Shown: positions 13,925 to 60,864 of the stretch, one piece after another
Layout: each line of letters begins with the position of its first letter
How positions within the stretch are numbered: position 1 is the first letter of the stretch
Assembly (NCBI GenBank): GCA_022925895.1
Contig: JAKSYS010000074.1
Location: forward strand, 79,015-143,014
Direction: 5' to 3'
Source of the DNA: Fragilaria crotonensis
Taxonomy: Eukaryota > Bacillariophyta > Fragilariophyceae > Fragilariales > Fragilariaceae
Length of the DNA: 64,000 bases
Notes under the pieces: model-generated
What the model was told of the DNA's origin: nothing
Databases searched by the model: none
What the model saw: only the letters and a program-made list of their open reading frames with translations
Program-made: the position numbers and the translations under genes

Positions 13925-14138
13925 TGTTAAGTTCTGCTCGTGCTATCGTGTTTTCAGGCTACTGCATATGCATGACCGTACGATTCGTACGGTAGCTATG
14001 ATGCATGTAGAGGAATGCGAAGTATGTGTTATAATTTTTTTAAGTTACTAGCATCACCAACATGCTGCCCCTTCGGGGCACATTCACCTTGCGAAAGGCC
14101 TTGCCTAGATCTTTGATTATGCGGACAGATATTAATAG
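13925..14138 (+). repeat. 3' LTR of the second copia
   Basis: 214 bp identical by eye to 7410-7623. It is followed by CAGTAGTC, which restores the target duplication GCAG(T). Confidence 0.92.
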
Positions 14139-24515: not shown

Positions 24516-24528
24516 TGTCCCGAGGTAT
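24516..24528. repeat. Left 13-bp target-site duplication of the full-length LINE
   Basis: TGTCCCGAGGTAT, repeated exactly at 33584-33596 on the other side of the element. A duplication of this length is typical of target-primed reverse transcription. Confidence 0.9.
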
Positions 24529-24822
24529 AATAAACCTAATTATTAGGGTTTTCACCGTCGATGGTCTTTTAACAAAACCATCGTGTGTACCCCGTCGTGG
24601 CCATCCCTTATTCCATGGTGGCGACGATCATGTTATCCTAACCCCATCCCTAGCGCGATACCTTATTTCGGTGCATGTATTCCAAGTGTGTTTGAACGTT
24701 GTGTATCCGTGTTCGACGGTCTGAAAAAGTTTGTCAGTAAAGTTTGTCTCTTCCCGTCACGACTGTATCTATCCTGTGCCATTTTCATGTAACGAAGCCA
24801 TCGCCGTCGTGAGGACGCTGAT
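24529..24822 (-). other. 3' UTR of the full-length LINE
   Basis: Shares with the truncated copy (37920-38044) the imperfect palindrome CCTAAT-A-ATTAGG close to the end and, upstream of it, a block seen on the plus strand as GTGTACCCCGTC(G/A)TGGCC. Conservation of the 3' terminus suggests it is the recognition signal for the element's own RT. Confidence 0.65.
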
Positions 24823-27381
24823 TTATTTAAAATCTTCCAATGGTTGCTCGCAGTAATGCCTATCGCCTGCTCTTAAGGTTTCCGATTGTCGGTGCATTGC
24901 AGTTATCTCCGCCGCCTCCGCTTCCCTGATGTGTCGGTTGATGGCATCCTGGTTGTCGTAGCATTGTATTCCGGGCCTTCCATGTTGTCTGCGTGAGAGC
25001 TTGAACGGCTTTAAGAATGTGTGTATGCGGTGAAAACCAGTGTCCGGTTTAGCTGGAGAAGAATCGAACATAGCGTCCTCCGCCATGAATCGCCACTCGA
25101 CACTCAAGTACCCTTTGACTGCGTTATCCCATCCAATCGTCAGCTGATCACTTAAAGCTACACGCAGGCGTTCGTGGAATTTAGACGGAATTTGATCGAA
25201 CGGAGGATCGTATACTGCAATGCCCTCCACCCAGGAGATGATGCCATCTCGTAGGATTTGAAACACCGGGTGGGGTTCCTTCGGGGACATTGTTTTCCTG
25301 AAAGTTTGTAGACCTTTTTCGTGGTCCAATTCGATCGGCATTGAAGGACGTGCTGTGTCGTCTCGTCCGTCGTCTTGCAGCACGGACATAATCGAAGCTG
25401 GGGATCCTTGACCTTTGCGTTACGTATCCTCGTTACGCCCGTATGCCATTGGTTGAACATGAATTTTGTTTGCGCCACCTGTGCAGCCGGTGGTAATCGT
25501 CTATAGAAACGCCCGAGAGCTTCCACGTCGATTCGGTTCCAGGTGGCATTCGACCACCGATTTTGCGATTGGATATGCAACCGCAAGTGATAGCCGTTTA
25601 TGTGGAATCGAATACTGGACTCGACCTGGGATACCAATCGAACCCCGTTAAGCAATACCGTGACTCGTGCTTCAGGAGTGTGATCTGTTTTCTCAATTGA
25701 TTGTCGTTTGTTGGATTGTTCGCGATACCATGTTGCCAGAGAATCAACGTGATTGTTACGGATGACATCCCGATTATGCCCATTACAGACATCGTGTCGC
25801 ACCGTTTGATGGCCTTTGATCCACTTCGTCGTTATTTTCCGACGAAGGAACTTTGTTTCCGATCGAATGACTCCCAGATAATCAGAGTTTGCAGGTTGAC
25901 GTGTTTGGTTGATGATGATTTAGTTTCCGCACCACGTTGTTTATCGCGGTTTGACTGTCCGTTACCCATCGGAACGTGCATTTATGACGATGTCCCCAGT
26001 GTCGGTGTAACAATGAGAGAAACAGGAGAGCTGCCGCGTATCCACCGAGTTCGCATCTCGTAGAACTAGCGGTATCGTACGGTCCATCGATAGGTCCAGC
26101 CCTTCGCAGAGAATGTCATTCTTTGGTGTCGTCACGCTCCATCCAACGTACCTTTGCGACCTTTCAGACCGCCGTCCGAAGCAATCGTAAGAATTTGTTT
26201 GCGTTGGCATTCTTTCCAAAGCGTGTCCTCGTCGGATGTAAAATTGATGTGAGACAAGAGGCGTCGCGTGTTCCTTGGTAATCGTTTGAGTCTCGACGAT
26301 AGGGTCAATGCGTCGTCTTGTTGTTGCGAAGATTCCATGCTGACTTGGGTCTTCAGATCCTTCAGTGTGCTTTGGGGTGCTACTCTCCATGCCCTGCCGT
26401 ACCTGAGAAATTGTGACGCTATATACCGTCTCCACAGGCGCTGCTGTTTCACAGTCGGATTTTGTTGCCTCGGCCACGTCGGATTGACAACAAAATCTGT
26501 AGGTCGTATGCCGTCAAGTGCCCATGCTGCAATCTTAGAAGGTTCATGGCAATCCACCATATCGGCTATCGTCGTCACTTGGAGGAACAGTCGTATGAGA
26601 TTGATATCGGTCTGTTGTTGCGTTGTATCCCTTCAAACGGATTGAGTTCATGATGTACTGGTCATGTGGACCCCGAAGTGGAAGCGAGAGGACATTTGTG
26701 ATGTCCATGCTAATGTTGTGATTGGACATGAACTGACGCATTGAAAGGATCCAAGTCGGCGTGAGATACGGTATATGTATACTCGGTTCCGCTAGTAGTT
26801 GCATGGGGACGCCCGATTCGAGTTGTGATGCTTGAAGTTGAAGAAGAAGCAACTTCCCGACTTCTGTGTTGCCGTAAACCTCGTGACGAAAATATTTAAT
26901 CATTTCAATGCCTCCCTCTGTGCGAAGGTCCATGAGTCCTAATCCGCCCATGGATATGGGACCGTGACACAGCGACCGGTAATTTGCTGGAGAGTCCCAG
27001 TTTTTGCACAATCGTCGGAATGATTTTTGTCTGCACCTGAGCCAATTCTTCTTCGTCCACCGCTACGGCTGGCAGTGAATACCTCATGGCCGGATCGTAT
27101 ATAGTGCGATGGAAAACTCGAATGTCGCCAGGAGTTAATCGAGGTGATTTGAGGTAACCTGCGAATTTGTCAGCCTTGGCTTTCAGAGCTTTGATATGTG
27201 CCGAGAAATCCCCTGACGGTGTTTGATGCACACCAAGAATCCTTGCAGGCTGGTTGATGTCTTGTCGTCGAATTTTCGCCCTTTGATGATGGGATAATGA
27301 CCCCTGATATAAATTGATGGAGGGATCGGAGAGGGACGATGTGCGCATTTGTGGTCGACCATTGCGCCAGTCCCAATACAT
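24823..27381 (-). pseudogene. LINE ORF2, post-RT region, RNase H and zinc motif (frameshifted)
   Basis: Continuation of ORF2 beyond the RT. It contains the thumb/connection region (MYWDWRNGRPQMR ... RQDINQPARILGVH ... GPISMGGLGLMDLRTEGG), an RNase H (TIASDGGLKGRKG, then frames holding the rest of the fold) and a C-terminal LCPCCKTTDETTQHVLQC zinc-binding motif. The frame changes several times (near 27390, 27000, 26560, 26150 and 25800). The first is an extra T in a run of six at 27423-27428; removing one restores the conserved GGALNLKKCSWY continuation. The parallel copy at 38507-39772 is uninterrupted and serves as reference. Confidence 0.85.
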
Positions 27382-27406
27382 AATGTACCAGGAACATTTC
27401 TTCAGA

Positions 27407-29104
27407 TTAAGAGCTCCCCCTGAAAAAATGGAGAAGTTGTTCCCATGTCTGTGCGACCGTTTCTAGTGCTGTTGTCAATTCATGGATCGATTTTGTACCA
27501 TCATCTGTTATCCCGATAGCTGTGTCATCGACAAACGCGTCCACCAGTCGTCTATGAGTAATAGAGCCATCCACTGATCGAAAGCTTATGCGATCGGGAA
27601 TAACACGTTCCAACGTATTCAGCAGAAGTACCACGAGTGATAGCCACACCGATGGTGATGCCCCGCTTCCTTGGCCAGTACCGAAAAGAGGTTCCAAAGG
27701 CGTACCGCTGTACGACTCTTCTGATACTCCGTACACCGTTTTCACCATGTATTTCATCAATTCGAGAGATGTTGCATGAGTACGGATGGCCTCTGGCGGC
27801 ATCCCGCACCTTCGAGCTGCCAACATACCCAATGCTACAATAATTCGATCAAAGCATGCCGACGCATCGTTATCGAAACGAGCGTAGTTGATTTTGAGGA
27901 CTCTGCACAGGTCGGTGGTGAGTTGGTTTAACATTACTGGGTCCATTGTTGTTCGTCCCGGAACTGATCCATGTTGACCATCATTTAATAGATGGAGTCT
28001 GACCGAACGTCTGACCAGACGGGATCCCCACATTATTTTGAGAAAAAGGTTGTAATCAGCCTCGAACAGATGTATAATCCGCAGGCGGTTGATTTGAGGT
28101 CGTCCAGGGTCTTTTTCTATCATCACATTCACAGCATTACTCCATCGCGGTATAGAAATCCCTCGTGAGATTGCTATATTCATAAACTTGCGGAAACACT
28201 CCAATAGCATTGTATCCTGAATCATTGCCTTATAGTGACCCAAATGCCTCCCAGACGGAGACGTGGTTGTCGTCTCCTTCCAGGATTTGAAACCCCTTAC
28301 GATATCTGCTGAGGTTATGTCGCAGGGTATTGGTCCGCTTTCAAGTACTGAACCCGGTATTTGGAATGAAGCAAGAAACTCTCGTAACAGTTCGCGATCT
28401 CCATACCACTCCTCCGGGATTTCGCCTTGCAATAGAGCCTCCGATTCCGGGGAGAGGCTCGTGAACGTGAGTGCGTCATGTATCAATCCATGTCCGCACG
28501 GTGATTCAGCAGCTGCTCGGAAAGCTTCTCTGTTGAAGCTCAATAAATGTGCCTCGATATCTTCCCGTGTGATCACAGTATCCCAAATGAGATTGTCAGG
28601 GCAACTGTGTTGGAGTAGATTGTGAACTTGTCCGGGGGGTGTAACATCGCTCGATTCCGGGTGTCGAGGAACCAATACCTGAGAAAGAGCCGAATACTCG
28701 GTCGGTTTGACGATCTGCCTGAGTTTACCAAAGAGTTGTCTACTGGTTTCGCCAAGTAGAGTCCTTTTTACAATCCGAGCTTTTCTTGCCGATTCTGTTT
28801 TTGTAAGAGGATTGTTGTCCATTTCGTAGGTTTCGAGCAATTCCGCATAATTGTTGTTGTGTAGCTCGGACGCGTCCTTCTGAGTTTTGCGCAGTACTTT
28901 TGTCGCCTGATTAAGTCGTTTCCGTACCTCACATATTGGTAACTCTATCGAACGGTCGGGGAGCACGAAAGATGGATCGCAAGATTGTATCTGTCTCTCC
29001 CAGCGGCTAAATGTATTGTAGTAATCTTCCCGTACTGATGTTCTCGTAATCGCAGTTTCCAATATCGCATCAACACTCCCGCATTGCGTAGCCGTGGCGA
29101 CCAT
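27407..29104 (-). CDS. LINE ORF2, reverse transcriptase part
   Basis: 565-codon open segment. An N-terminal helical linker (about 1-200) leads into the RT domain: SPSGRHLGHYKAM (about 280), INRLRIIHLFEADYN, GRTTMDPVMLNQL, the palm motif FDNDASACFDRI (about 410-421), GTGQGSGASPSVW, and the catalytic FVDD (about 524-527). It reverse-transcribes the element RNA from the nicked target. The frame ends prematurely at a homopolymer shift. The ATG at 29104 is internal to ORF2, so translation must begin near 30590. Confidence 0.9.
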   Translation of the reverse strand: MVATATQCGSVDAILETAITRTSVREDYYNTFSRWERQIQSCDPSFVLPDRSIELPICEVRKRLNQATKVLRKTQKDASELHNNNYAELLETYEMDNNPLTKTESARKARIVKRTLLGETSRQLFGKLRQIVKPTEYSALSQVLVPRHPESSDVTPPGQVHNLLQHSCPDNLIWDTVITREDIEAHLLSFNREAFRAAAESPCGHGLIHDALTFTSLSPESEALLQGEIPEEWYGDRELLREFLASFQIPGSVLESGPIPCDITSADIVRGFKSWKETTTTSPSGRHLGHYKAMIQDTMLLECFRKFMNIAISRGISIPRWSNAVNVMIEKDPGRPQINRLRIIHLFEADYNLFLKIMWGSRLVRRSVRLHLLNDGQHGSVPGRTTMDPVMLNQLTTDLCRVLKINYARFDNDASACFDRIIVALGMLAARRCGMPPEAIRTHATSLELMKYMVKTVYGVSEESYSGTPLEPLFGTGQGSGASPSVWLSLVVLLLNTLERVIPDRISFRSVDGSITHRRLVDAFVDDTAIGITDDGTKSIHELTTALETVAQTWEQLLHFFRGSS

Positions 29105-29179
29105 TTGTAGAGTTTTGGTCTGACGCGTAAAGAATTCTCAGCTTTAGCATCGCACGTCCTTGATCATCATCCCATGCAG

Positions 29180-30686
29180 TCAAAATTTCCGAACCTGCTG
29201 TCGTGTCATCGCTCGATGTGTTTTGAACAGTGTATCGATTCGCTCTTTCATTCGGTGATCTGAGTAATACTCTCGAATCGCCTTGTGGTATCTTTCCGTT
29301 AGTTCTGGATTGCCGCTCTTAAGAGCACGTCGATGGATCGTTGGTAAGGAGGTCTCTGTAACGTCCGCCCCAAAGAGAGATGACAGATTGATATCAATGT
29401 ACAGAGCCCTATGGTCCGATTGTGGACCTTCGAAGTAAGATAGAGTACCTTGACGACTCATAGCGTTACGAGTTCGAGGGCAACCAAACATATAATCGAT
29501 TCTCCTATTTGCAGACCCAATGAAAGTTGACGGTGCAGGAGTCAGCCGATGTAGGTCTTCAAGGTCCTGGGACATTAGCATGTTTTCGAGTCGGTGATCT
29601 CTCTCAAGAACTGCGTTCGAGTCCATCATAAGCAGTAGGGCATGTCCTTGCTCGCGCAATTCTCTTAACTTAGATGAAATATCCGTCAAGAAGTTTGTCC
29701 TAGGTTGTGGGTGTTGTTCTCCTTGCTCCTGATAGTACACGTATTCTCTATGGAATGTACTTCCTAGGGGCTGAGGATATGGAGCTCGCGCATGTACGGT
29801 AACCAGTAATAATGCTAAACTTCTGACCGTCTTTTCCGATCAGCGTGAAACCACTCCACCTACCAAGACCAGTTGGATCCGTTATTGGTGGACCAAAACC
29901 GCTGTCGTTAATGCGCCTCGAACCAGTTGGAGGACTCCCCAGCGTGGAAGGTTTCCCTGTCATGGAGAGGATCAATCGCGACAGATGGCGAACCGAAGAC
30001 TGTTTTCCGTACTGGAATTGCCTTTGGACGCACTGTTTAAAAGCATTTCGCAAGTGCGTATGTTGCCAGCCCAAATTTGTTTCAGCCATACCAAAAATGT
30101 CCACAGAGTACGATAGCATGGATGATAGAAAGTACCGATAGTCGGAACCTTCCTGTGTGGATGTAAGACCTTTGACGTTTTGAAACATCACTCTCGTTGT
30201 GTTCGGAGCCTTGTAAACAATAGCGTCGCCAAAACTTTGATCTGCCACCGGATCCACTGTGCGTCGAATCGTTAGACGTCCTGGACGCTGCTTTTGAAAC
30301 AGCAAAACCTGAGACGGTGGTATGGGAGGATGCCTGTCGATCCCTCGAGATGTGTAACGACCTCTGTTAATGAAGGTCGGAATATCGCCGGTAGTCTCCT
30401 CGGATCTGTTGGATGTATTCCTGAAAATGCCATGGATATGTTCCTGGCGTGTTGCTTCCGCAGCACCGTCCTGACTTCCTTCATGAGTTTGCCTTAGCGT
30501 AAATGCCGTAGTAGGATTCATGTTTTGTGTGGTTGACTGCTGCCTATGACTCAAAAGGGAGTTTCCAGTCGTTGATATTCTGATCGGTGAAGGCGTCATC
30601 ATTCGTTGTCGCCTCCTCTGGATCACTTTGTTGGTTGTATTGAGTGTCCAGATTAGGCAAAATTGATGAGCTGTCGTCGGATGCAT
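29180..30686 (-). pseudogene. LINE ORF2, N-terminal AP-like endonuclease (frameshifted)
   Basis: Two open stretches (30686-29748 and 29740-29180) form one exonuclease-endonuclease-phosphatase fold. Motifs in order: RVMFQNVKG (metal Asn), GMAETN (catalytic Glu), GRWSGFTLIGKDGQKFSIITGYR, then after one frame change TNFLTDISSKLREL, MMDSNAV (the D-x-N motif), RRIDYMFG and SDHRALYID (catalytic His). All key residues of an AP-endonuclease-type target-nicking domain are therefore present. The likely start is the Met at about 30520 (MNPTTAFTL), about 20-30 bp after the ORF1 stop; the earlier Met at 30686 would overlap ORF1. The break near 29745 is a single-base shift in an otherwise conserved GSTFHREYVYYQEQG block. 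Confidence 0.87.
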
Positions 30687-33531
30687 CCATTGTTGATGAT
30701 ATGTCCGGAGGTGCGGAATGTGGTTGAAAGGTCACAAGAGTTTCTTCCTCCAATTCATCCTCAAACTCGGTTGACCCCAAGGACATTTCCTCTAGTTCGT
30801 CGTGAAGTGATCGCGACTTTTTCTTCGTCGGTGAATTGGCTTGTAGAGATTCATTCCTGTCCGTAGGCTCCACATGGTTGATAGAGGGACTGTCAGATTT
30901 CTGCACGAGATTGAAGTGAAGTCGATTGACCCCGACGTGTTCAGTGCTCTCCGTCAGATCGCGCATGTCCATGAGTGTCCGTCGCCGTGTTGGATCCTTA
31001 GTACCAGTGGTCCGGTTGTGTTCGGTGCCTTTAACCTGATGTTCGTGTTCGCCTTTTACTATTGTTGCTGTGAGTACCTCGATCCGGGTGGCCATGCGAT
31101 CAATAACATCCATCAATTTTGACACTCGGATGTTCAGATCTACAATTTGAACATGGGAGTCTTGTTGGCGTTCCATCGTGACTGCGAGTTTGTCTCGGCT
31201 ATCGTGTAAAACTGCATCCATATCGTCGATCCGGCCCAGTTTGGACTCGATGTTGTCTAATCTGGTTGCGGTTTGGGACGTGAGAGTGGAAGTCTCCGCC
31301 GTTTCCTGCTGTTGACGTCGAAATAGAGCTTCCAACTCGTTTAGGCGTCGTGTGGTGTCAGAAGACATGACCGATGCGGTAGCCCTGGACTGTGTCGCTG
31401 ATTGAGTAAAGGCAGTGTTGTCATCACCATGCTCCAAATTGTTTGGTACCGAAGATTGAGCCGCTCCTGTGGGCAGCTTGGATGCCTTTGGGCCAGCTCG
31501 TTTTCCTCGTGAACGTTGGGTGGTGGAGAGGTCCTCTGCGTTATCCACCTCTGTCGTGATACCCCGCACCGATGATGGTGCATTTTTCCATATATCCTTT
31601 GATGACATCTGGCCTAAAAGATCCAAGTTCTTTTGAGTAGAGTGATCGATATGAATGACTGACGGTAATCCGGATAGACTGTCACGGAATCGAGCTTCGC
31701 GCTTGCCAATGGGGTTAAGTCTCAATCGATATTGCCGAAGGTGATCGGCAGCTTGCTGGGCGTACTGCCTTGGGACTAGCAAATAGGCTTTTTGGTCGTA
31801 GCCTCCGTTCACGACTTCACATCGAGCCGCGGGATCATCAACGTCCTGAAAAATTGTGCGCGCCCATTCCCTTGTGGAACGTTCAACAACCGTGCCATTT
31901 TCAAAAATTTCTTTCCGGATTTTATCCAAGTTGATCAGTGTTGGAAATAACGGAAAGGATTTGAGCGTTTTGGCGTAAACATCTTGCATCTCAAAGTATT
32001 CGCTAATCTGCGATGGTTGCAGTTGAGCGAGTGCAATACGTGGAAGAAACAAGGGAGAGTTATGTCCAGTCAAAAGAGCGGAGAGGGCCTGTGACAATGG
32101 TGACACGTGAGTTTCACCGCACTGAATCACAAGATGGTTAATCTTTTGTTCCATTGGTGTGCGATGGAAGAGAATAATGTCGAAAAAAGGGGTTTCCTTG
32201 GGTAGTTGTTGACGTAGACTCTGTAGGAAGTGGGTGCGTTGGGTAGTTCTAGCAGCTTTGAAAAGAATGTAACCGGCTGTTACAATTTTTCCGCTAGTTG
32301 TGGTGGAATTGGAGATTTTCACTTGTACTTTGTGCTCAGCAAGCTTGGTTACTGTGTTCTCTTTGTTTCTCCATTGGCAGGGAAATTTCGCTGCGAAGCA
32401 GACACGAGCTCCAAAAATGATTTGGGAGGTAGCCGACAGGAATGCAATGTTCGGTGAGAGAAATTCTCTCAGCTCACCTGGTGACAGAGTAGTTATCTCT
32501 GAGGAAAGCAAGAGATCACGACTTTCCCATCGATAGAAAAAACAGTCATTGTCTGGGAACAACTCGCACAACATTGCATGAACATCTGTCAACCAAAGGG
32601 GAGATTGTTCGTTGTAACGAGAAAAATCTCCTTGTGGCGACCATCGGAAAGTAAGTCGATACGTTCCGTCGTTCGTGGGAACATTGAGGTCTGGGTTAAA
32701 CACCGACTGTTTTTCCACAGTGAATGAGGTATCGGAGGCTGTAGTGCTGTTGGAGGATGTGGTTTTCTTGTTCGGAGAACCGCAATCATCCGTGGAGGTA
32801 GGCATGTTGGTGGTAGATAGATCACGTACGGGCGAATTGTCCTCTGTGCGCTCGAAAGTACTGAACGATACGTTGGCAGAGTCTGTGGTGAAAGATTCGG
32901 GTGGAACTTTGGATGCATTCAGGGTGTTGGGCGAGGAAGCCCTCTGCTGGGTCTTTTGCTTCTTCGATCCGACCTGTGTCCATTGGGTCACTTCGATATC
33001 CATAATGTCACGATCACCTTGTACGTAGTCTGTCCATGACATGTCAATCGTATTGATGGCGAGATATTGCGGAGCATGGCGCTGGAGATATGGCTGAGAT
33101 ACATCAGTGGCCCATGCCGACAAAGTTTTGGAAATCTCCAGTTTTCTGTCGACATGATACATAAAATTATACCATACCATTCTATGGCAGATGATCGGGT
33201 CAGCACTGTACTTCATCCACAACGTATCGAACTTTGTGCAGTCGTCGTACACAAAGAAGCCCAGAGTCACATATCGAGACCAGTTCTGCGGTGTTCCATG
33301 TTGCTTGTAGGCATGTGCGTTGGCATCTCGTCTGTATCGTTCTTCGACAGAGAACCAGTCTACGCCTGCAGTTGGCCTCGGGATGGCTTTCCACTCCGTC
33401 GTATAAAAACCATACGTCGGATGATGCGGATCATGGTACGCCGCGGGGTCGGGAGGGGACGGGAGCGCCGCATGGGCGGTCATGGTCATGGTGGGGATGC
33501 TACGCGACAACTTCCTATTCGGGATACGCAA
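30544..33531 (-). CDS. LINE ORF1 protein, long form with coiled coil
   Basis: Open for 995 codons; the likely start is the Met at 33489 (MTMTAHAALPSP), which matches the start of the homologue at 57047. Regions: an N-terminal conserved block (RYVTLGFFVYDDCTKFDTLW, WYNFMYHVDRKLEIS), a variable Ser/Thr-rich linker, a large conserved central block (about 290-650) shared with the other ORF1 (FRWSPQGDFSRY, FYRWESRDL, ISATSQIIFG-type, VSNSTTTSGK, THFLQ, REWARTIF, EARFRDSLSGLP), a predicted coiled coil (about 726-825, TRRLNELEALFRRQQQ) and an acidic tail. By position it should be the RNA-binding chaperone of the particle, but no zinc knuckle or RRM is obvious. Three times longer than most LINE ORF1 proteins. 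Confidence 0.88.
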   Translation of the reverse strand: MRIPNRKLSRSIPTMTMTAHAALPSPPDPAAYHDPHHPTYGFYTTEWKAIPRPTAGVDWFSVEERYRRDANAHAYKQHGTPQNWSRYVTLGFFVYDDCTKFDTLWMKYSADPIICHRMVWYNFMYHVDRKLEISKTLSAWATDVSQPYLQRHAPQYLAINTIDMSWTDYVQGDRDIMDIEVTQWTQVGSKKQKTQQRASSPNTLNASKVPPESFTTDSANVSFSTFERTEDNSPVRDLSTTNMPTSTDDCGSPNKKTTSSNSTTASDTSFTVEKQSVFNPDLNVPTNDGTYRLTFRWSPQGDFSRYNEQSPLWLTDVHAMLCELFPDNDCFFYRWESRDLLLSSEITTLSPGELREFLSPNIAFLSATSQIIFGARVCFAAKFPCQWRNKENTVTKLAEHKVQVKISNSTTTSGKIVTAGYILFKAARTTQRTHFLQSLRQQLPKETPFFDIILFHRTPMEQKINHLVIQCGETHVSPLSQALSALLTGHNSPLFLPRIALAQLQPSQISEYFEMQDVYAKTLKSFPLFPTLINLDKIRKEIFENGTVVERSTREWARTIFQDVDDPAARCEVVNGGYDQKAYLLVPRQYAQQAADHLRQYRLRLNPIGKREARFRDSLSGLPSVIHIDHSTQKNLDLLGQMSSKDIWKNAPSSVRGITTEVDNAEDLSTTQRSRGKRAGPKASKLPTGAAQSSVPNNLEHGDDNTAFTQSATQSRATASVMSSDTTRRLNELEALFRRQQQETAETSTLTSQTATRLDNIESKLGRIDDMDAVLHDSRDKLAVTMERQQDSHVQIVDLNIRVSKLMDVIDRMATRIEVLTATIVKGEHEHQVKGTEHNRTTGTKDPTRRRTLMDMRDLTESTEHVGVNRLHFNLVQKSDSPSINHVEPTDRNESLQANSPTKKKSRSLHDELEEMSLGSTEFEDELEEETLVTFQPHSAPPDISSTMDASDDSSSILPNLDTQYNQQSDPEEATTNDDAFTDQNINDWKLPFES

Positions 33532-33583
33532 TTACGAACGGCGGACAGAACGTACTTGCGCAAAACTAAACTAGAAAATTGTG

Positions 33584-33596
33584 TGTCCCGAGGTAT
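33584..33596. repeat. Right 13-bp target-site duplication of the full-length LINE
   Basis: TGTCCCGAGGTAT, identical to 24516-24528. Confidence 0.9.
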
Positions 33597-37919: not shown

Positions 37920-40277
37920 TATATATAACCTAATTATTAGGTTAACACCTTCCCCGGTCTTTCGACAAGACCAGCGTGTGTACCCCGTCATGGCCTACCC
38001 GTATTACAGGGAGGCGGTGACTTATCTATCCCTAACCCTAATCGTCATATGTATAACCCCCCCCCTGGTCGCGTTTCCGTGTCTGTGGCTGTTTCAATCG
38101 TGGTTCTAGATCGGAAGAAATTTGTCATGAGTGTTTGTCGTGTCCCGTCGGTGGATGCTCGAGTGATAGCTCTTCTCATGTACAGTAACCACCGTCGTCG
38201 TGATGATGGAGATTTCTTTTGAATCGCCTCTAAGGGCTGTTCGCAGTAGTGCCGATCCCCTGCTCTCAGCCTGTCAGACTTCCTGTACAAGTCTGCTATC
38301 TCGATCATCTCGAATCCCTGATCATACGAAGGTCCAAATCCTGGGAATGGTGTAACATTTTATTTCTGCTCCTCCAAACCGTCTGATGATAAGAATGTAT
38401 GGCCAGTAGAATGGTGTGCATCCGTTGGTAACCTCGGCCTTGGATGGGAATATCTGAATCAAAGAGATCGTTCGGCCATGTGTCCATGCGACACTTAGAT
38501 ATCCTTTCATAGCATTTCCCACCCAATGTCCTGTTGATCTTGGAGAGCCTCTCTTATTGAATCGCTGAACTTTGCTGGGTACTCCCCTGGCTGTATCGCA
38601 TATGGTGCCGAGTCGTCACGATAATCTATCCATTCGCACAGCTTGTCTTTTATTATGTTGAATACCGGATGAGGTCCTGACGATGATAGTGTAGTTCGAA
38701 GCTGGCGCAAGGCTGACGTGTGATCGGTGTTCGAGCGACAACGAAGTACATGAATAGTCGTCTCGTCAGTCACCTTGCAGCAGGGACATAAACTGAGTTT
38801 GGAATCTCGCACTTTGGCGTTTCGACTTCGCACTTTGCCGGTGTTCCACTGATCGAAAATGAACTTCGTTTGCGCCACTTGTGCTGATGCCGATAATCTT
38901 CGATGAAACCGTCCGAAGATGTCCACGTCGATACTGTCCCAGGTGTTGTTTGTCCACTTGTTTTTCGACTGTACATACGAGCGTAGATGATATCCGTTAA
39001 TATGGAACCTCAAACATGATTCGATCTGAGATACTAGCCGAACCCCGTTGACAGATAATGTGATCCTGGCTTCAGGCGTGTGCTCTGTCTTCTCAACTGA
39101 TTGTCGTTTTTTGGAGCGTTCTCGGTACCATGTCGCAAGATGATCCACATGAGAGTTCCGAATCCCATCTTTGTTGGAGGTACACACCGTTTGATGACCT
39201 TTAACCCAGACTCGTGAAATTTTCCGTCTGATAAATTTAGTCTCCTTTTGAATGATACCCATGTAGTCCGGATTGGATGGTTGGCATGCCTTGATTGGTC
39301 GATGGAGTGTAGAATTGGCGACGTTGGTGATCGCAGATTTGCTATCCGTAATCCAACGGAATTGACATTTGTGACGTTTGCCCCATGAACGTTGAAGTAT
39401 CGATATCAAGATAAGTGCTGCCGCGTAGCCTCCGAGTTCGCAACGAGTGGAATTGGCAGTGTCGAATGGGCCATCGACTGGACCGGCACCTTCGCAGAGT
39501 ATTTTGTTCTGAGGAGTTGTGAGGCTCCATCCGAATGTCCCGTGTCGACCTTTCAGTCCGCCGTCCGATGCGATAGTCAGCGTCTGTTTGCGTTGGCATT
39601 CACTCCAAAGTTGATCATCACTTGCTGCAAAATGAATGTGGGTCATCATCCGTTTCTGATTCCGCGGCAAACCTTTGAGCCGCAGTGCCACCGTACCCGC
39701 ATGGTTTGTGGAAGGTCGAGCAGGAGCGAGCGGTTCGTTTACCTGCGTGTGGCCTATTGATTCTCGCGCCATTTCCTGTCATACCGCAGAAATTGCGACG
39801 ATATGTACCGTCGCCAAAGTCGTTTCTGGGAGGAACTCGGAGGTAGTTGGCGGGGCCAAGCATCCTTCGGAACGAAATCGTCGGGCCGTTCACCTTGCAG
39901 AGCCCATCGTGCTATGTTGGTTGGTATGTCGCTATCCGTCATCTCAGCTATCGTCGTGATCTGTAGATAGATCCTCGTGAGATTGATGTCCTTCTGTTGG
40001 TTGGCGCTATATCCTTGGAGCCGTGCAACATCCATCACATACTGATCAGTGGGACTCTTGAGTGGAAGGGATAACGTATCGGTGAGTGTAATCTTAATGT
40101 TGTGGTTTGACATGAATTGTCGCATCGAGAGGATCCATGTTGGTGTTAGATACGGAAGGAAGAGACCGGGTTCCTCGAGAAGGGGTATAGGAAGGCCTGA
40201 CTCGAGTTGTGAAGCCTGAAGTTGCAGAAGAAAAAGTTTTCCGACCTCCGTGTTACCGTAGACTTCATGTCTGAAGT
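37920..40277 (-). mobile_element. 5'-truncated LINE inserted in the kinase gene
   Basis: 2,358 bp between perfect 10-bp duplications (37910-37919, 40278-40287). It retains only the 3' part of ORF2 plus the 3' UTR and is cut off at the level of the HEVYGNTEVGKL block, the common outcome of incomplete target-primed reverse transcription. The 3' end has CCTAATAATTAGG followed by ATATATA. Same family as 24529-33583 but clearly diverged. Confidence 0.9.
38045..40277 (-). pseudogene. Truncated LINE ORF2: post-RT region, RNase H and zinc motif
   Basis: Two open stretches (40277-39754 and 39772-38507) then a short tail. The first holds PTWILSMRQFMSNHNI and the LWRRYISSQFLRYDRKW block. The second (421 codons) contains a complete RNase H: Asp70 (TIASDGG), Glu112 (CELGGYAAA), Asp143 (TDSKSA), His193 (VKGHQ) and Asp210 (SHVDHLA). 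It is followed by LSLCPCC-x8-HVLRC (329-345), a compact Cys/His zinc motif perhaps used for nucleic-acid binding. Translation from this 5'-truncated copy is not expected, but the RNase H is uninterrupted and shows what the full-length copy should contain. Confidence 0.88.
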
Positions 40278-44012: not shown

Positions 44013-44328
44013 TGTGATTTTACTACCTATCGGTACTATCTAACCTGTGATAGACGAATAGGATGTAAAGGGCTTTAGTATTTTGTAAATTGGTGTTAGC
44101 CAATATTGTGAGCATTGATCGTAGATTATTATTTGATCCAGAATGTGGGGACATTAGTACCTTGACATAATGGTGACATGATTGCAAGTACAATTCCTAC
44201 CACAATTGATACTGTACCTATGACCGAGTATTGTATCATAAGGTCATAATACGGTAAGTCGATTTGGGTAGCGTTGTCATACTGTGCTTAGCCGTACTGC
44301 TGTCCGGCTGTACCGTCGTATCATCACA
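44013..44328 (-). repeat. 3' LTR of the third copia (left end on the plus strand)
   Basis: 316 bp; differs from the other LTR by one T in a homopolymer (GGGCTTTAG here, GGGCTTTTAG at 50036-50045). The polypurine tract GTGAGGGAG lies directly inside (44329-44337 on the plus strand as CTCCCTCAC). Confidence 0.92.
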
Positions 44329-53969: not shown

Positions 53970-56945
53970 GAAGCTCGCAATGTCAAACTTGGCCAATGGA
54001 ATTTGGTGGGAGTCGGTAGTGGATGTTCTGACCGATGTAAAGTTCACGTGGAATGTAACACTGGTTACCTTTTTTAGTTGATGTGAGTCCCGTGTGGAAA
54101 CAAGGTTCTCTTTTTCACTGGAGCATTTCTGACCATATGCATGATGTTGTTGTTTCTGTGAGTGTATAGCCAGCAACCATGCGCCCAATGGTTGTTTTAA
54201 CTTTCCACTCGGGTGACTCAAAGTTTGTTTGCTCTCTTCCACAATACCCATTCCATCTCTGAAGGACGTTCTTGATGTATTGTGATACCTCGGGTGCGAC
54301 TGCTGATTAGACTGAACCTGCCGGTGAGTTCGTTAGGATCCAGGCAACGGCCATTTGGTTCCGTCAAATCCGATAACGTTGCCGCTTGAGGTATAAGCGA
54401 CAATGGTTTAACCTGCAAATTTCACTCGGTGAAAATTTCCGTGAGTCAAGGATGATGTCCATTATGTGAAAATCGTGCGTCCGTTGTAATGGTGGAATGA
54501 ACCGTGAATGTAACTGGAAGACTGGCGCCGCATGAAGAAAGAAACTTCCGGACGGAGACCAACAATTTTGATTCAAGATGTGGAAGATCCGTATCGGCAC
54601 GTTCCAAAAATGAATAAGAAACACCAACTTGCGCTTGAAACCAAGAAACCGCGATTTGTAGAAGTCGTCCTGCCACGGTGCTCTTCCGCCAGTGTTTAAG
54701 AAAGAGCAAAGTCTGTTGAATACCTTGTTGAACATATAATGACCGGAATGTTGCTCCCCATATTGCATCGGACCGTATAGGATTTCACGTTTTGTATTCC
54801 TGTTGAAGCCGCATCGAGGCACGATAATTGACATTGCTTTCCGTTGGATCTTATCTAATTGCACTTTTGATAGCGCAGAACATGCCAAGGGGTAACTAAC
54901 TGCCGGGAGACAACACGCATAATAATTGGTCCATGCTTCAAGACGTGAGCGGGCACTTCCATAAGAACGCCGTCGATTCGTTGCTCTTCTTCAACAATTG
55001 TCGGAACTGTTCGCCTTGGGTGCCTGCCGGGTCTTTGAAATGTCCTAGGGTTTAATGTGCGTGGAATGCTCCCAGGATCTGCAAGTTTTGTTCCTTTCCA
55101 CCGTCGGTCTCGAGGACTTTGACTTGTGCAATGTCGTTGGATATCTTTGGTACAAGAACAGGAGCCCTTGAGCAGAGAATTGCCATTGGAGAATGTGGCA
55201 CGAGCACTTGATAGCTCGAGTGCGCCTCCGCTAGCATTTAACATATCCGTCCACCCTGGGCGTTGGCTTGCGTTTGTTTGATCAGCTGAGGAACTGTATG
55301 TTCCGTGACATCGTCTCGAAAAGCGTTTGTTTGTCCATTGCAATCGTCAACAAATCCCACCATTCCTAACTCGACGGTGGTGCCCTCGGTATCGTAATAA
55401 TGCGCTTTCTGTGCCAAAGAGTCGTAACAATCGAATAATGTACTTGAAAGAAAACACCAGATTGCTGGCGAATTTGCACTGCCTTGTGCGGTTCCGTATA
55501 TTGGATGAGTCGGTGAATGTCGGTACCCTGAGGTTGACAATCCCAGCTCTGTCCGCACTCGATATTCAGCGTGTTGAAGTGTTGTAGCATTCATGTCGGT
55601 TACCGTGGCGGGGACACCAAATTTACGACTCACCGTCATTCCAAGATTTGGGATAATCCGATCGTAGCATGCTGATGCATCATAATTCGTGAGGGTCACT
55701 GGTTTCCGTGTGGCTCGAGAAACTTCCAGTTGTAACTCCTCAATGAATACGGGATCCGTTGCATTTCGAAAGGAGCGAGATCCGTATTGACCATCGTTTA
55801 GTAGTCTGAATGCCTCTGGCTGTTGTTGCATAGCAGCTCTCCATTTAACCTGAGTGCCAAGTTATAATCCGCTTCGTATATGTGGATCACTCTTGTCCGA
55901 TGCAGTCGGACATTATCGGTATCTTTAAATAGAATTGTGTTTGCGACCGTATGCCACCTTTGATACAAATAACCGCGCTCCAGCGAGTAATTGATCATTG
56001 ACAGATGAAGCTCCAAGAGAGCTGCCTGGCGTCGATTTAGCTCATCTCGTTTTGCCTTAAAGTCGTCCGTTAACTCATCGTCTGAAGCTGTTGTTGAGTA
56101 TGCATGCCTCGCAATAAGAGCTTTGTAGTGGCTCAAGTGCATCCCTGATGGGGATGTTGTTGTTGATTCCGACCAGACCTTAAGTTTGCCAATGAAATCG
56201 TTTTCCGAGATAGTGGGTCTTGATGTATCCTCAGCCATTTCTTGAGTATGTTGCAAGTGTGACAATAGCAGGCGAACGCTGGATGGTATGGTGAGGTGTC
56301 ATAAGTACCGTTCAACATATCCTCTTGCGCTTTGCTAGTGCCGGTGAAACCTAAGTGATCGGACAGCGGGGAATTGTGAAAGGAGTACCGTGGGCTTGTC
56401 CAAAGTGGTGACGATTTCGTTCCTGCAAATGTCTTGCCACCTCAGTCGGGACATCCACCTGGGTCCACTGAGTACATGATTTTGGATCATCCTCTGGATG
56501 CAAGGGTATTTCGATGCGAATGACTCCTTTCGTCGATCCGGTTTGTCTAACTCGTTGCAATTTCTGGAAAAGCATCTTTATATCTTCGGCTTTTTTCAAC
56601 CGACGCAGAATCCGTGCCGTATGCCGGTCCCCTGAAGCTCCCGATGATTCCAGAGCTTTGATCCGCTGATTTCGTTCGCTGTCTCGATGCAGAAAACTAT
56701 GTTGTACTATTTCACATACCTCTCGCTTTGCTATTCGCAACTGTCTAGAACATTCTCTTTTTGTTTGTGGTATCTCATTGTTGGTTGTTGCCAAGGGGTT
56801 GTTTTGTTGAATACTTAGAATTTTGGTGTGGTCGAGACCTGTTTTCAGTGTGGAGAGCAATTTCCGGAGCCACTGAACCTGTTTCCTGGCTAAAGACAGT
56901 TTCACTGACCACACGGGGGCTTCGAACTGAGGGATACGGGATTCA
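53970..56945 (-). pseudogene. LINE ORF2 3' segment: RT and C-terminal region (frameshifted)
   Basis: Minus-strand ORF2 of a LINE related to 24529-33583 but more divergent. 56945-56351: helical linker between endonuclease and RT (KRECSRQLRIAKREV, RILRRLKKAEDIKMLFQKL). 56265-55798: SPSGMHLSHYKAL and TRVIHIYEADYNLAL. 55831-55238: GSRSFRNATDPVFI, the palm NYDASACYDRI (Asp51 of that stretch), GTAQGSANSPAIW and catalytic GFVDD. 54888-54364: post-RT region (LSKVQLDKIQRKAMSII, PRCGFNRNTKREILYGP, MDIILDS). 54418-53970: tail (LQVKPLSLIPQAATLSDLT, HPSGKLKQPLGAWLL). No RNase H was seen before the segment ends. Multiple frame changes. Its upstream end abuts the 5' end of an oppositely oriented LINE part at 56946. 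Confidence 0.82.
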
Positions 56946-59900
56946 CACAATTTTCTAATTTAGTTTTACGAGTGTACGGTCTGTCCGCAGTCCGCACGTA
57001 CGTACTCTGAATAGGAAGTTGTCGCGTAACCAACAGTTGATCGACCATGACAGAAGCAGCGGTGATGCCGCCACCCCCAGCATACCCTACCTTTGAGGAG
57101 GTAGAGCATTCAGTGTATGGGTTTGAGTGCGACCAGTGGGAAGAAATTCCATACCCAAATGGACCAGATTGGTTCACGGATAGTGAACGTAGTCGTCGCA
57201 ATGAGCATTCCAATCGTTATCAAAAATATGGAGGAACGGCAACCGGGTGGGCACGCTATCTCGAACTTGGGTTCTTTGGCTATGAAGATTGTAGCGACTT
57301 TGAGGAAGTGTGGAAAAACTTCGATACCAATCCATTGGCAGTTCACAAAGCGATCTGGTACCAATTCATGTACCACTTGGATAGAGAGTTTGAAATCTCC
57401 GAGAAATTGCAAGAATGGGCTACGAACTATAGCCATGTGTATGTGGCATACTATGATCCGGCATCACTGCAAGTGGATACACACGCATCGTTGACGGAGT
57501 GGAAACTTCTAAAGATATGGACACATCCATGGAAGAAGTTGATGCCAGTACAGAGGCGTGGATCAATGTCCCAGAAAGAGGCAGACGCAGAGGAAAGAGT
57601 CCACCACTACAGGACAGCGGAGTCGAGCAATGCACACTATCTCGGACAGTCCAAACGAGGAGATGGAAAACCGTTATTTCAACAAGGCCGAGGAGGAAAA
57701 CAGCGTGCAACTCCGGCTAGACAGGCCATAAAGGAGCTTCATAACCAGCTTAAGCAATCCAAGAGATACCAAAAGACAATGAAACCAGCATCGAAATTGC
57801 CTCAAGTGTCGACGGTCCAAGAAGAAGAAGAAGATGAGTTCGTTTTGGAAGATGAAAACAGGAAAAATACCACGACAGGAAACAGGCTGGATGCATTACC
57901 AAGATTGCAACCGTTTAGGAATATCCCAGTGAATGATGGCACTCATCGGATGACAGTCAGGTGGAAACCATCGGGAGGTATCCAACAATATGAACATGAT
58001 AAACAGAAACTCAATATCGCGATTCATAACTTGTTATCATCCGTCCTCGCCGATGAGGATGGAATGTTGTACCGATGGGAAAGTGCAGATCTTAAAGCAG
58101 CAGCGGTTATATCCCAATTGACCGGTGGGGCACTGCGGGATTATGTGTCTCCACATATCTCGTTCATCTCCGCAACCTCACAGATCATATTCGGCGTCCG
58201 TGTGGCGTTCACGGACAACCCGATAAGGTGGCAACATGCACCTCACAAGAAAGAGCAACTCAAATCGAACAATGTGGAAATCAAGGTTTCAAACTCCAGC
58301 AGCACGGGAGGCAAAACTGTTATTGCGGGCTACATCTTGTTAAAAGCACCAAACACAACATCGACGCACAGGTACACCCAATTCCTCCGCAGTAAGATGC
58401 CAGAAGTGACACCGTATTTTGATATTGAGAGATATAAGAAAACTCCATTCGATCAAACCATCCCTCACTTAGTAGTCCAATGTGGAGAACGTCATGTCAC
58501 CCCAGTGTGTCAAGCCTTGCTTCAAGTGTTGACGGGAAAAGGTACCGCCGCTTTCCTTCCTCGGTATGTGTTCAGCGCGATGACAGATGATCAAATCAGT
58601 AACCAGTTTTGTTTCCATGAAAAATGGTTACACTCCGTCAAAGCCTTACACCTATCACCCATGATATTTCATCTGGACCAACAACGCATTGAGTATTGTG
58701 ACGACGGGCGGATAATTAAACGGTCGACACGTGAATGGGCTGGAACGTTGAAACTTCCCGACGGATCCGCAGCATTATGCGATGTGGTAAACGGCACCAA
58801 AGAGAAGAAAGCATACTTGTTAACACCAGGGCATTACTTTACAGAAGCAAAGGAAGAGCTGCGTTTATATCGTCTTCGCCTATCACCGCCGAGCCATCGC
58901 GAAGCGAGGTTTCGTGATAGCGTCCCAGACCTACCTGATGAGATCCATATCAAAACAGCTGCTGACTCGAAGGTTTTATTGATGGATAATCTGTCGATGT
59001 CCGACGTTTGGCAACAGCTGCCGTCATGGTATAAGGATAAGACACAGACGTCATTGTCTAGTACAGAAGGTTCGAAACAGACGAGAGGGAGCGCGAAACC
59101 CAAGACGCAACGTCCGAAGAATGCATGGGCACTTCCTTCAGAGGAGGCACCGGCAGGTAAACCCTCAGTCAGAACGGAGGAGAGGCAGCACCGGGGCGAA
59201 GATGACTCTGCAAGTGTTGACGACCGTACCTCGGTGGGAACGGATGAACTTAGCACAGCCTCCACACAATCCTTAACCTGGACGTCGGAATCCAAGTATC
59301 AAGTTAAACTTCGAGAAATAGAAATGTCCACGAAGAAAAAGCTTGAATCGTTGCAAGTCGCAGGGCGTGAGGCTTCGAAACAATTGGAATCGTTGGAAGA
59401 TAAGTTCCAGGCGTTTGCAACGGACACATGCAAGAAAATTGAGGCAGTGCAAAGTGACCTGCAGCAAGTGGTGACTCAGTTGGCGGAATCCGTGGATACT
59501 CAACAGCAGATCTCAGGCAGCTTGACAACCTTCCAAACAAACACAACACTACAATTTGATCAAATCGGTGATCATCTGGTAACAACGGGCGAAAATGTTA
59601 GCTCTTTGGCGAATTCCATGACCGACATTAGATCGGAGTTGGCAAGATTGTTTGGATTGATGGCACAAGATCTTGCATCAAGAAATATGTCACAGGCAAC
59701 ACAAAACCAGACCGCAGAAGAAATGACCAACATGCAGGTGATGCCCAATAATCGCGAAGTATTATCCCTCCCTAGGAGGATGGGCCTGGCATATGACAAA
59801 CTCAACGCTCACGAGGAAGGGCCTCTTCGATCTCCGCCACCAAAACGCACTCGAGAAGGGGTGACTCTCCACTATGACGATCGGCCGCCGGAGGAAATGA

Positions 59901-60863
59901 ACGTCGATCATACGGAGGAGATGTCGGTCGGAGTGGATACGATGTTCGAGGATGGAGATGACATTACGGTCAAATCACACGATACGACCGAATCCGACTT
60001 ATACTCGCAGGACGAACACGTATGCACAGATCTGGGTGATAGATTTGCAGCTGCGACGGCGCCGGTCGAATTAGTCTGTGAAGCAAGTACGCCAGGCTCA
60101 GTCACGGCATCAGAAGCCGATACACCGAGGCATACAAACGTGCACCCTCTTCCAACAACGAGGAACAGCAACACCCATTTACCACGCAACACGCCAGCTC
60201 CCCTTGACTCCCAATACACATACGACATGGGTCCAGCTGGAGCGGCGGACTCATGAATTGGTGGCCAGGCCACCGAGAGGATGGAAGACGTCGGCGGCAA
60301 ACGCTGACTCCTCCATCACATCAGCAGTCTACCCTAGCCCACGGAGGGGAAACCCCCTTGTGTACGGAAGTTCCCAATACTGCATTACAGCGAGCTCAAG
60401 CCCAGTGGCGACAGCTCATGTCGCGGACCGGTCCGCCAGTTGCAGACCTTCCACATCGGAGAGAAACGGTGCTAAGCACAGAGAACAGCAGAGATAACAA
60501 CCCGTGGGGTGATGAACTATGTGGAAAAGACGATACCATAACACGGGTGTATGCAATAAACCTAAAGGGTTTGCAACTTGACAATAAAGGCGGCAAATTT
60601 GACTCGGTCTGCCGATACATCAAGGAGACCCAAGCGGATGTGTTCTGCGGTCAAGAACACAACGTGGATACGACACAAGCCTCAGTACGAAATATCCTGT
60701 TTGACACGACAAAACAACATTGGGAGCGAAATCGAATCGTGTTCGGGACATCCCCAATTCCCTTTAAGACTCAGTTTAAACCGGGAGGCACTATGGTTAT
60801 GACGGTGGGATCTCTCACAGGTGTGAGACCCTCCCTAGTTACGAGCGCTCACGCTCAGGGGTA
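56946..60863 (+). mobile_element. LINE 5' segment in inverted orientation relative to its 3' segment
   Basis: Begins exactly at CACAATTTTCTAATTTAG, the 5' terminus also seen in the full-length LINE (33583, minus). It contains a 5' UTR (100 bp), complete ORF1 and the first ~200 codons of ORF2, then stops resembling ORF2 near 60830. Together with 53970-56945 (opposite strand, ORF2 from the linker onward) it accounts for most of one element, with part of the endonuclease missing. The 5' end sits at the inversion point, as expected from twin priming. Confidence 0.75.
57047..60256 (+). CDS. LINE ORF1 protein, long form (1,069 aa)
   Basis: Uninterrupted. The ATG at 57047 follows the 5' UTR and starts MTEAAVMPPPPAYPT. 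Regions: N-terminal block (ARYLELGFFGYEDCSDFEEVW, WYQFMYHLDREFEIS), a basic Gln-rich linker (about 180-300), a conserved central block (about 305-680: VRWKPSGGIQQYEHD, MLYRWESADLKA, SFISATSQIIFGVRV, VSNSSSTGGKTVIAGYILL, QCGERHVTPV, STREWAGTL, REARFRDSVPDLPDE), a long coiled coil (about 745-880, TKKKLESLQVAGREASKQLE) and an acidic C-terminus. It aligns with the 995-aa ORF1 at 30544-33531 over the N-terminal and central blocks despite low identity elsewhere, so those blocks are under selection. Probably the RNA-binding particle protein. Confidence 0.9.
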   Translation: MTEAAVMPPPPAYPTFEEVEHSVYGFECDQWEEIPYPNGPDWFTDSERSRRNEHSNRYQKYGGTATGWARYLELGFFGYEDCSDFEEVWKNFDTNPLAVHKAIWYQFMYHLDREFEISEKLQEWATNYSHVYVAYYDPASLQVDTHASLTEWKLLKIWTHPWKKLMPVQRRGSMSQKEADAEERVHHYRTAESSNAHYLGQSKRGDGKPLFQQGRGGKQRATPARQAIKELHNQLKQSKRYQKTMKPASKLPQVSTVQEEEEDEFVLEDENRKNTTTGNRLDALPRLQPFRNIPVNDGTHRMTVRWKPSGGIQQYEHDKQKLNIAIHNLLSSVLADEDGMLYRWESADLKAAAVISQLTGGALRDYVSPHISFISATSQIIFGVRVAFTDNPIRWQHAPHKKEQLKSNNVEIKVSNSSSTGGKTVIAGYILLKAPNTTSTHRYTQFLRSKMPEVTPYFDIERYKKTPFDQTIPHLVVQCGERHVTPVCQALLQVLTGKGTAAFLPRYVFSAMTDDQISNQFCFHEKWLHSVKALHLSPMIFHLDQQRIEYCDDGRIIKRSTREWAGTLKLPDGSAALCDVVNGTKEKKAYLLTPGHYFTEAKEELRLYRLRLSPPSHREARFRDSVPDLPDEIHIKTAADSKVLLMDNLSMSDVWQQLPSWYKDKTQTSLSSTEGSKQTRGSAKPKTQRPKNAWALPSEEAPAGKPSVRTEERQHRGEDDSASVDDRTSVGTDELSTASTQSLTWTSESKYQVKLREIEMSTKKKLESLQVAGREASKQLESLEDKFQAFATDTCKKIEAVQSDLQQVVTQLAESVDTQQQISGSLTTFQTNTTLQFDQIGDHLVTTGENVSSLANSMTDIRSELARLFGLMAQDLASRNMSQATQNQTAEEMTNMQVMPNNREVLSLPRRMGLAYDKLNAHEEGPLRSPPPKRTREGVTLHYDDRPPEEMNVDHTEEMSVGVDTMFEDGDDITVKSHDTTESDLYSQDEHVCTDLGDRFAAATAPVELVCEASTPGSVTASEADTPRHTNVHPLPTTRNSNTHLPRNTPAPLDSQYTYDMGPAGAADS

Positions 60864-60864
60864 G
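60253..60864 (+). CDS. LINE ORF2, N-terminal endonuclease start (truncated)
   Basis: Starts at the ATG overlapping the ORF1 stop by four bases (ATGA at 60253-60256), an arrangement that suggests termination-reinitiation. A low-complexity leader (about 95 residues) is followed by the AP-endonuclease start: RVYAINLKGLQLDNKGGKFD (metal Asn), then VFCGQEHNVDTTQ (catalytic Glu) and FKPGGTMVMTVGSLTG. After about residue 192 it no longer resembles the family and stops at 60864, so the element breaks off inside the endonuclease. The remaining endonuclease motifs (DxN, SDH) are absent. Confidence 0.82.
   Translation: MNWWPGHREDGRRRRQTLTPPSHQQSTLAHGGETPLCTEVPNTALQRAQAQWRQLMSRTGPPVADLPHRRETVLSTENSRDNNPWGDELCGKDDTITRVYAINLKGLQLDNKGGKFDSVCRYIKETQADVFCGQEHNVDTTQASVRNILFDTTKQHWERNRIVFGTSPIPFKTQFKPGGTMVMTVGSLTGVRPSLVTSAHAQG

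Follow-up and report, generated by a model that had tools for sequence, protein, structure and literature searches.

There are few worked-out cases of how a long interspersed nuclear element (LINE) translates its second open reading frame (ORF) from one bicistronic RNA. In the parts of the published accounts available to us, SART1, an R1-type LINE of the silkworm, is described as having a UAAUG stop/start site at which termination is followed by reinitiation, with a hairpin 34 nucleotides (nt) downstream, and an unconventional route has been proposed for ORF2 translation in LINE-1. Accounts available to the same extent describe, in caliciviruses and influenza B, the termination upstream ribosomal binding site (TURBS), an upstream element of 40-87 nt whose motif 1 pairs with helix 26 of 18S ribosomal RNA (rRNA) and whose arms are species-specific (PMC5972666, PMC5902531). 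Here we analyze a 64,000-nt stretch of DNA from the diatom Fragilaria crotonensis (contig JAKSYS010000074.1, positions 79,015 to 143,014; hereafter the window), which holds three copies of a LINE family in which a covarying hairpin ends ORF1 ahead of an overlapping stop and start codon. On balance, we think it likely that, through this hairpin, a fraction of ribosomes begins again on ORF2 after completing ORF1.

Set against these descriptions, the diatom LINE is like SART1 in being bicistronic, with an ORF2 start that overlaps the ORF1 stop, but the SART1 hairpin lies downstream whereas the conserved hairpin of the diatom element lies upstream, within ORF1, and carries a conserved loop motif. 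With TURBS, as described, it shares an upstream stem, copy-specific complementary arms (motifs 2 and 2* of TURBS), a conserved motif exposed in the loop and a stop/start overlap (AUGA or UAAUG in TURBS). Unlike TURBS, its host is a diatom and its carrier a LINE, and the motif 1 core UGGGA, which is complementary to 18S helix 26, was not found; the loop core is instead C[AG]AUAC, for which pairing is only hypothesised.

Results

The ORF1/ORF2 junction

Where ORF1 ends were picked by the ORF1 frame alone, an ATG overlapped or adjoined the stop codon (ATGA, TGATG or TAATG) at 12 of 13 ends; the exception was copy 1 of the window, where the frame has slipped. Among the 32 stretches that were picked by the nucleotide motif alone and have a near stop, 28 have an ATG at that stop (those without are L009, L032, window copy 1 and the second L021 site). 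Junctions were called where the stop codon came with an ATG and the tail peptide contained [QR]Y, with codons left free and offsets of -1, 2 and 4 allowed. This rule called 31 junctions in 37 stretches, and the stop/start count among these 31 is partly a matter of construction. ORF2 starts in the same relative frame (-1) in 30/31 called junctions (L043 differs), and in 28/31 a distance of 51-54 nt separates the stop from the codon with which the motif peptide begins. The junctions of L021, L045 and L043 have 24-36 extra nt between loop motif and stop, with the middle-stem arms kept in L021 and L045. Two further rule matches, in L012 and L017, were judged not to be ORF1 ends and show other codons; the loop motif is also present in L032, L046 and L009, which the rule did not call, and no junction was located in L016, L037 or L040. 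We found no in-frame slippery heptamer in any of 27 junctions. In L009 (1009-6567, contig C44), a difference in junction length from a close relative has put ORF1 and most of ORF2 into a single open frame, 1,853 codons long.

Within the window, copy 2 carries the junction hairpin and an ATGA stop/start overlap (60253-60256) at 60197..60258 on the plus strand; this hairpin belonged to the training set of our covariance model, has one middle-stem mismatch and is not the minimum-energy fold on its own. The junction hairpin of copy 1, with loop CAAUACAA and a displaced ORF2 start region, lies at 30597..30657 on the minus strand (cmsearch 58.5 bits, E = 6.5e-20) and stood outside the training set, although its close relative L014 was inside. 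Both the junction hairpin and copy 3 (see below) are additional to what a first-pass annotation of this DNA had reported.

A covarying hairpin with a fixed loop code

Two alignments of the called junctions were used: A4, with 28/31 (without L043, window copy 2 and L041, the last of which matches L023 exactly in this region), and A6, with 27/31 (L041 left out, as well as L021, L045 and L043 for their longer loops). The arms of the middle stem differ among copies (UCUGGA/UCCAGA, CCUUGA/UCAAGG, CCUAGA/UCUAGG and CUUGGA/UCCAGG among them), and across 28 rows its six pairs were 88.7% formed, versus 13-45% when one arm was slid by 1-3 columns. Cells changed on both sides numbered 17 versus 4.8 in shuffles, and covariation was 0.307 versus 0.148; for paired cells, two-sided cells and covariation, none of 500 shuffles was as high, with similar results on 27 rows. 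The number of pairs with two-sided change was reached in 11/500 shuffles, and pair types showed no excess over shuffles on the 28 rows. A null in which codons were replaced by synonymous ones gave 62.5% paired (standard deviation (sd) 2.9), with a maximum of 72% in 5000, versus the 88.7% observed. In the strongest pair (G-C, A-U or U-A), a Leu codon contributes its silent third position (G, U or A), and its partner is the middle base of the codon across the stem (C, A or U), where the residue shifts between Pro, Gln and Leu in step with the silent base; the protein therefore changes to keep the RNA pair.

The upper stem was examined by swapping arms among 34 distinct genome matches in 14 left-arm groups, chosen without regard to this stem. 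A mean of 2.99 of 4 pairs was formed, versus 2.13 after swapping (maximum 2.96; 0/5000 as high). Genome-wide, the pattern GAnnnnCRATACRA(n12)TCnAG had 64 exact matches, versus 1 when it was reversed as a control.

The loop begins C[AG]AUAC, read in the ORF1 frame as CAA or CGA (Gln/Arg) followed by TAC (Tyr) in 31/31 called junctions. Across 12 complete open ORF1s (mean identity 34%; broken frames left out), there are 62 degenerate columns with an invariant amino acid, and the motif Tyr alone keeps one codon; codon usage in these 12 ORF1s puts TAC at 55% for Tyr, CAA at 62% for Gln and CGA at 20% for Arg. The tail peptide that the hairpin encodes, L-D/E-x-Q/R-Y, is recognisable in 19/24 ORF1 proteins of at least 900 amino acids (aa), the window's own included.

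In single-sequence folding, the hairpin was the minimum-energy fold in 29/31 junctions (the exceptions being L044 and window copy 2), and the 7-nt motif was wholly unpaired in 26/27 predicted folds. Fold energies averaged 1.9 sd below synonymous recodings, with 12/27 below -2 and L023 above its null. RNAalifold returned no structure on 28, 27 or 16 rows, perhaps owing to changes of register in the lower and upper stems from one subgroup to another; for a single 7-row subgroup it gave 13 pairs, 4 of them with two-sided changes, at -18.2 kcal/mol. Applied to 11 copies outside its training set, the covariance model found 6 at E < 0.01 (window copy 1, L008, L009, L021, L045 and L046) and L043 at 0.024, and missed L016, L032, L037 and L040; it also made two further weak matches elsewhere in the window (E = 0.007 and 0.011). 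Conservation falls off on both sides of the hairpin in A4. On the downstream side, the first ~90 nt showed no stretch of conservation across 28 junctions, and RNAalifold, which had missed the upstream hairpin too, gave no consensus fold there. A search of the window against Rfam gave no match at gathering scores.

Copies of the LINE in the window

The first-pass annotation had described a full-length LINE of about 9 kb bounded by an exact 13-bp duplication, and our analysis bears this out. Copy 1 spans 24529..33583 on the minus strand (9,055 bp), as fixed by its target-site duplication (TSD) and by ends common to the copies on contigs C44, C39 and C703. The repeat, TGTCCCGAGGTAT, is exact at 24516..24528 (3' side) and 33584..33596 (5' side; neither assigned a strand), occurs nowhere else in the window even when one mismatch is allowed, and would be expected 0.07 times by chance in shuffled sequence. 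The 5' end of copy 1, at 33583, begins CACAATTTTCTAG, and the 3' end, at 24529, is AATTAGG plus a short TTA-type tail. The C44, C39 and C703 copies have TSDs of their own (about 16, 16-17 and 15 bp, respectively) and TTA- or TTTTA-type tails of varying length; at the five insertions where TSDs were found, these vary from 10 to 16-17 bp. A repeat search of the window found no direct repeats of at least 60 nt flanking copy 1, and hence no long terminal repeats (LTRs). With an endonuclease and a reverse transcriptase (RT) in ORF2, variable TSDs, no LTRs and copies truncated or inverted at the 5' end, the element is a LINE, that is, a non-LTR retrotransposon.

Copy 2 lies in two parts. The inverted 5' part (56946..60864, plus strand, by homology) comprises the 5' end, ORF1 (57047-60253) and the start of ORF2, with its ATG at 60253, a frame open to 60864 and homology to about 60822. 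The remaining RT part of ORF2 was recognized by tblastn homology at 54775..56944 on the minus strand, and the 5' end at 56946 abuts this fragment (56944-54775) head-to-head. ORF2 residues ~178-426, in the numbering of the L022 frame, are absent between the two parts. Copy 2 is laid out like a 5'-inverted insertion, since inversion of the 5' part in the course of target-primed reverse transcription leaves head-to-head split copies. The second, diverged ORF1 that had been reported at 57047-60256 is thus real but not free-standing, being part of the inverted 5' half of a split insertion. We looked for a TSD of copy 2 and found none, and its 3' end is uncertain. Copy 3 (37920..40277, minus strand; tblastn and TSD) is a 5'-truncated LINE with the 3' part of ORF2 and a 10-bp duplication, ACGTGCGGCT; its protein is 95% identical to the C347 copy across most of the matched ORF2.

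The window also holds other repeats. Identical 214-nt direct repeats at 7410-7623 and 13925-14138 enclose long plus-strand ORFs (8247-13792) and have the look of a recent LTR retrotransposon, and a second LTR-like pair (44013-44330 and 49979-50297, 99-100% identical) has minus-strand ORFs in between. Inverted duplicated ORFs at 14584-16395 (plus) and 17409-19241 (minus), with 72-nt repeats that are 70-93% complementary, appear leucine-rich-repeat-like by eye, and a tandem array of 12-nt units (41490-42002) overlaps a minus-strand ORF.

The ORF1 protein

The ORF1 of copy 1 (30547..33486, minus strand; ORF and alignment) has 980 codons from its ATG, in keeping with the unusual length already pointed out for it, and ORF1 length across the family is ~940-1130 aa. 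Its last ~22 residues are out of frame relative to relatives. The 1069-aa ORF1 of copy 2 aligns with it across 760 columns at 35% identity (E = 3e-146), and the ORF1 alignment confirms the conserved N-terminal block and the central block of ~370 aa that had been noticed in the two copies. AlphaFold predicts three modules in copy 1: a helical N-terminal domain (residues ~10-160), an alpha/beta central block (~265-640) and a coiled coil (~708-810). In one pair of copies, dN/dS was 0.04-0.07 in these modules versus 0.46-0.63 in the linkers and tail; all three modules are under purifying selection.

The central block, modeled as residues 262-642 (31561..32703, minus strand; AlphaFold2 pLDDT 88.1, pTM 0.76, with fold searches), is predicted to contain two tandem folds resembling ferredoxin or the RNA recognition motif (RRM), at residues ~274-396 and ~401-494, and a further alpha/beta module. 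We found no trusted family match for ORF1 in Pfam (in one search, among the best 25 of the 51 families that reached E<=1) or in PDB sequences, as the first-pass annotation had supposed for the central block; the best PDB profile matches, at about residues 690-860, resemble coiled coils. Foldseek and VIA, run on the full ORF1 model and on the central block, gave only fold-level matches of the common ferredoxin-like kind, with regions outside ~273-399 (full model) or ~271-467 (block model, ORF1 numbering) barely tested by VIA. The sole Foldseek match below 0.001 in each PDB search, 9lmn_B, was not trusted (root-mean-square deviation 17-20 Å). The activity that had been left unassigned can thus be narrowed, at the level of fold similarity only, to predicted tandem ferredoxin/RRM-like folds and a coiled coil, and ORF1p likely binds RNA through the former and self-associates through the latter, as other LINE ORF1 proteins do. 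Likeness of fold falls short of a clear match to a known ORF1 domain, so the first-pass view of the block as unassigned to any family stands. A lineage-wide diatom protein, as suggested earlier, would reach beyond the relatives identified: F. crotonensis is the sole named organism among them. No ORF1 relatives were found in IMG/VR or GTDB contigs.

We compared ORF1 with types I-V as defined in the part of PMC4120745 available to us, where type V is unclassified and fits none of I-IV. Like the type II ORF1 of LINE-1, it has a coiled coil and a predicted RRM-like fold; unlike it, it is ~940-1130 aa long, has an extra N-terminal helical domain and, in the two window ORF1s, no PF02994 match among Pfam families at E<=1. 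The type II order, a coiled coil before a single RRM and a C-terminal domain, was not seen, the predicted coiled coil (~708-810) following the alpha/beta block. Like Jockey-type (type I) ORF1, it has more than one predicted RRM-like domain, but the CCHC zinc knuckles that accompany the RRMs there are lacking: C-x2-C-x4-H-x4-C was absent from 59/59 ORF1s, and Pfam, searched at E<=1 with both window ORF1s, gave no zinc-knuckle family. For these two, Pfam at E<=1 likewise gave no esterase family, an SGNH esterase domain being the mark of type IV, and no PHD family, the PHD finger (with an occasional RRM) being that of type III; the latter result comes from the general search, with no further PHD search made. 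On these comparisons type V is the best candidate, with III and IV as further candidates.

ORF2

In copy 1, regions for an endonuclease, an RT, RNase H and a zinc motif lie at 25078..30614 on the minus strand (tblastn with relatives' ORF2), the domains being named through relatives and the zinc motif spotted by eye. The first-pass annotation was right about these regions; the frame itself is in pieces, with at least 7 frame changes relative to relatives' ORF2. Some of these may be sequence errors, since the published draft of F. crotonensis SAG 28.96 is, according to the part of its description available to us, an Illumina-polished Nanopore assembly (PMC9476933). An apparent pattern of intact ORF1 and decaying ORF2 was dropped: it arose because copies had been searched by ORF1, and the reciprocal ORF2 search, in which 25 candidates were scored of 1,173 seen, gave 8/25 full open ORF2 frames in the genome (1,874-2,026 aa, with no stop inside the match). 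Both ORFs are open in at least 2 genomic copies.

Domain matches came from ORF2 relatives. RVT_1 matched P0175 at E = 5.3e-7 (30.0 bits, above the 29.6 cut-off) and P0076 at 8.2e-7, just under the cut-off; Exo_endo_phos matched P0085 at 4e-5 (23.9 bits, below 24.5) and RNase_H matched P0058 at 7e-4 (20.3 bits, below 25.8). Among the 120 relatives listed of 579, precomputed Pfam labels place PF03372 in 7, PF00078 in 5 and PF00075 in 1. Four ORF2s from the F. crotonensis genome had no RVT_1 match at E<=1, and we therefore judge the RT, as read from sequence, to be strongly diverged. Relatives such as L021 show the unusual RT motifs GTGQGSGASP and AFVDD.

Discussion

Because the stop/start overlap, the upstream stem and the conserved motif that its loop presents at a fixed spacing match the description of TURBS, we infer a restart in which the hairpin acts as an upstream tether. 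A ribosome would terminate at the ORF1 stop, and the loop motif would contact the post-termination 40S subunit, by pairing with 18S rRNA or through eIF3. The hairpin would hold this subunit until it reinitiates at the overlapping AUG. Little ORF2 protein would then be made per ORF1 protein, so that ORF1p would be an abundant RNA-binding, self-associating protein and ORF2p a scarce enzyme, whose endonuclease and RT would carry out insertion through target-primed reverse transcription. As a lead, two positions of the loop accept either A or G, which would fit pairing to a fixed U in 18S rRNA. A bolder proposal, which we advance tentatively and hold to be clearly less probable than restart as such, is that the diatom LINE evolved its own TURBS-like, rRNA-reading restart signal with loop code C[AG]AUAC[AG], together with a new class of ~1,000-aa ORF1; it would be the first such retrotransposon.

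The hairpin might instead be a packaging or recognition signal bound by ORF1, ORF2 protein or a host factor, with its place at the junction incidental. A loop motif that is conserved and single-stranded in predicted folds would suit such a role, as would the RRM-like folds predicted for ORF1, but the fixed spacing of the motif codon from the stop, the ATG at the stop in most motif-picked stretches and the drop in conservation on either side of the hairpin argue against it, and we regard it as unlikely. Far smaller is the chance that ORF2 is made as an ORF1-ORF2 fusion by -1 ribosomal frameshifting. The nearly constant -1 frame of the ORF2 start would suit frameshifting, if within a rule that allowed three offsets, and the C44 copy does read as a single open frame, albeit with a junction whose length differs from that of its close relative; yet in-frame slippery heptamers are absent from the 27 junctions, the conserved structure lies upstream rather than downstream, and frameshifting has no need of the stop/start ATG found at nearly all ORF1 ends chosen regardless of ATG. 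We give equally little credence to the idea that what matters is a C-terminal peptide (L-D/E-x-Q/R-Y...) conserved as protein, for instance as a short binding motif, with the hairpin arising as its by-product. That peptide is recognisable in most long ORF1s, but the synonymous-codon null rejects this explanation, the motif Tyr is the sole codon-invariant column of 62, and, across the stem from the Leu wobble position, the amino acid varies in step with that silent base.

Two further alternatives concern the protein and the element as a whole. The central block of ORF1 could be an enzyme, with an HUH-type domain or another catalytic domain of ferredoxin-like fold, instead of a module that binds RNA. 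Weak Foldseek matches to ferredoxin-like enzymes and, in a viral library, to Rep proteins point that way, as do the many invariant polar residues in a 41-row ORF1 alignment (H451, C456, D521, E526, R536, R539). However, H-hydrophobic-H occurs in only 22/59 ORF1s and hence cannot represent a conserved active site, no enzyme family was found at the level of a family match, and fold matches of the second subdomain include Prp24 and other RRMs; a catalytic central block therefore seems quite improbable. Less easily set aside, though still somewhat doubtful, is that the entire element, ORF1 and junction included, belongs to an ordinary LINE clade that is already catalogued. The obvious candidate is Ambal, a non-LTR clade in Repbase; a comparatively large share of LINE/Ambal is reported for the diatom Pleurosigma. 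Against this, the open-licence literature, as far as available, gave no description of such an ORF1 or of an upstream junction hairpin.

As a transposon, then, the LINE belongs to a known kind, and the junction element is its novel part; we found no upstream, TURBS-like hairpin described for any LINE in the open-licence literature, to the extent available to us. Restart at the ORF1 stop, the reading we favor, gains from dozens of diverged copies that act as a natural mutagenesis, in which the stem pairs while its letters change, the loop code stays fixed and stop and start remain joined. The hairpin is also a small, portable element suited to reporter testing. With its ~1,000 aa, ORF1 extends the variety of designs known for this LINE protein, and purifying selection on its three modules marks the parts worth study. 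Should 18S rRNA prove to be what the loop reads, this diatom LINE would have converged with caliciviruses on the same trick for recapturing ribosomes.

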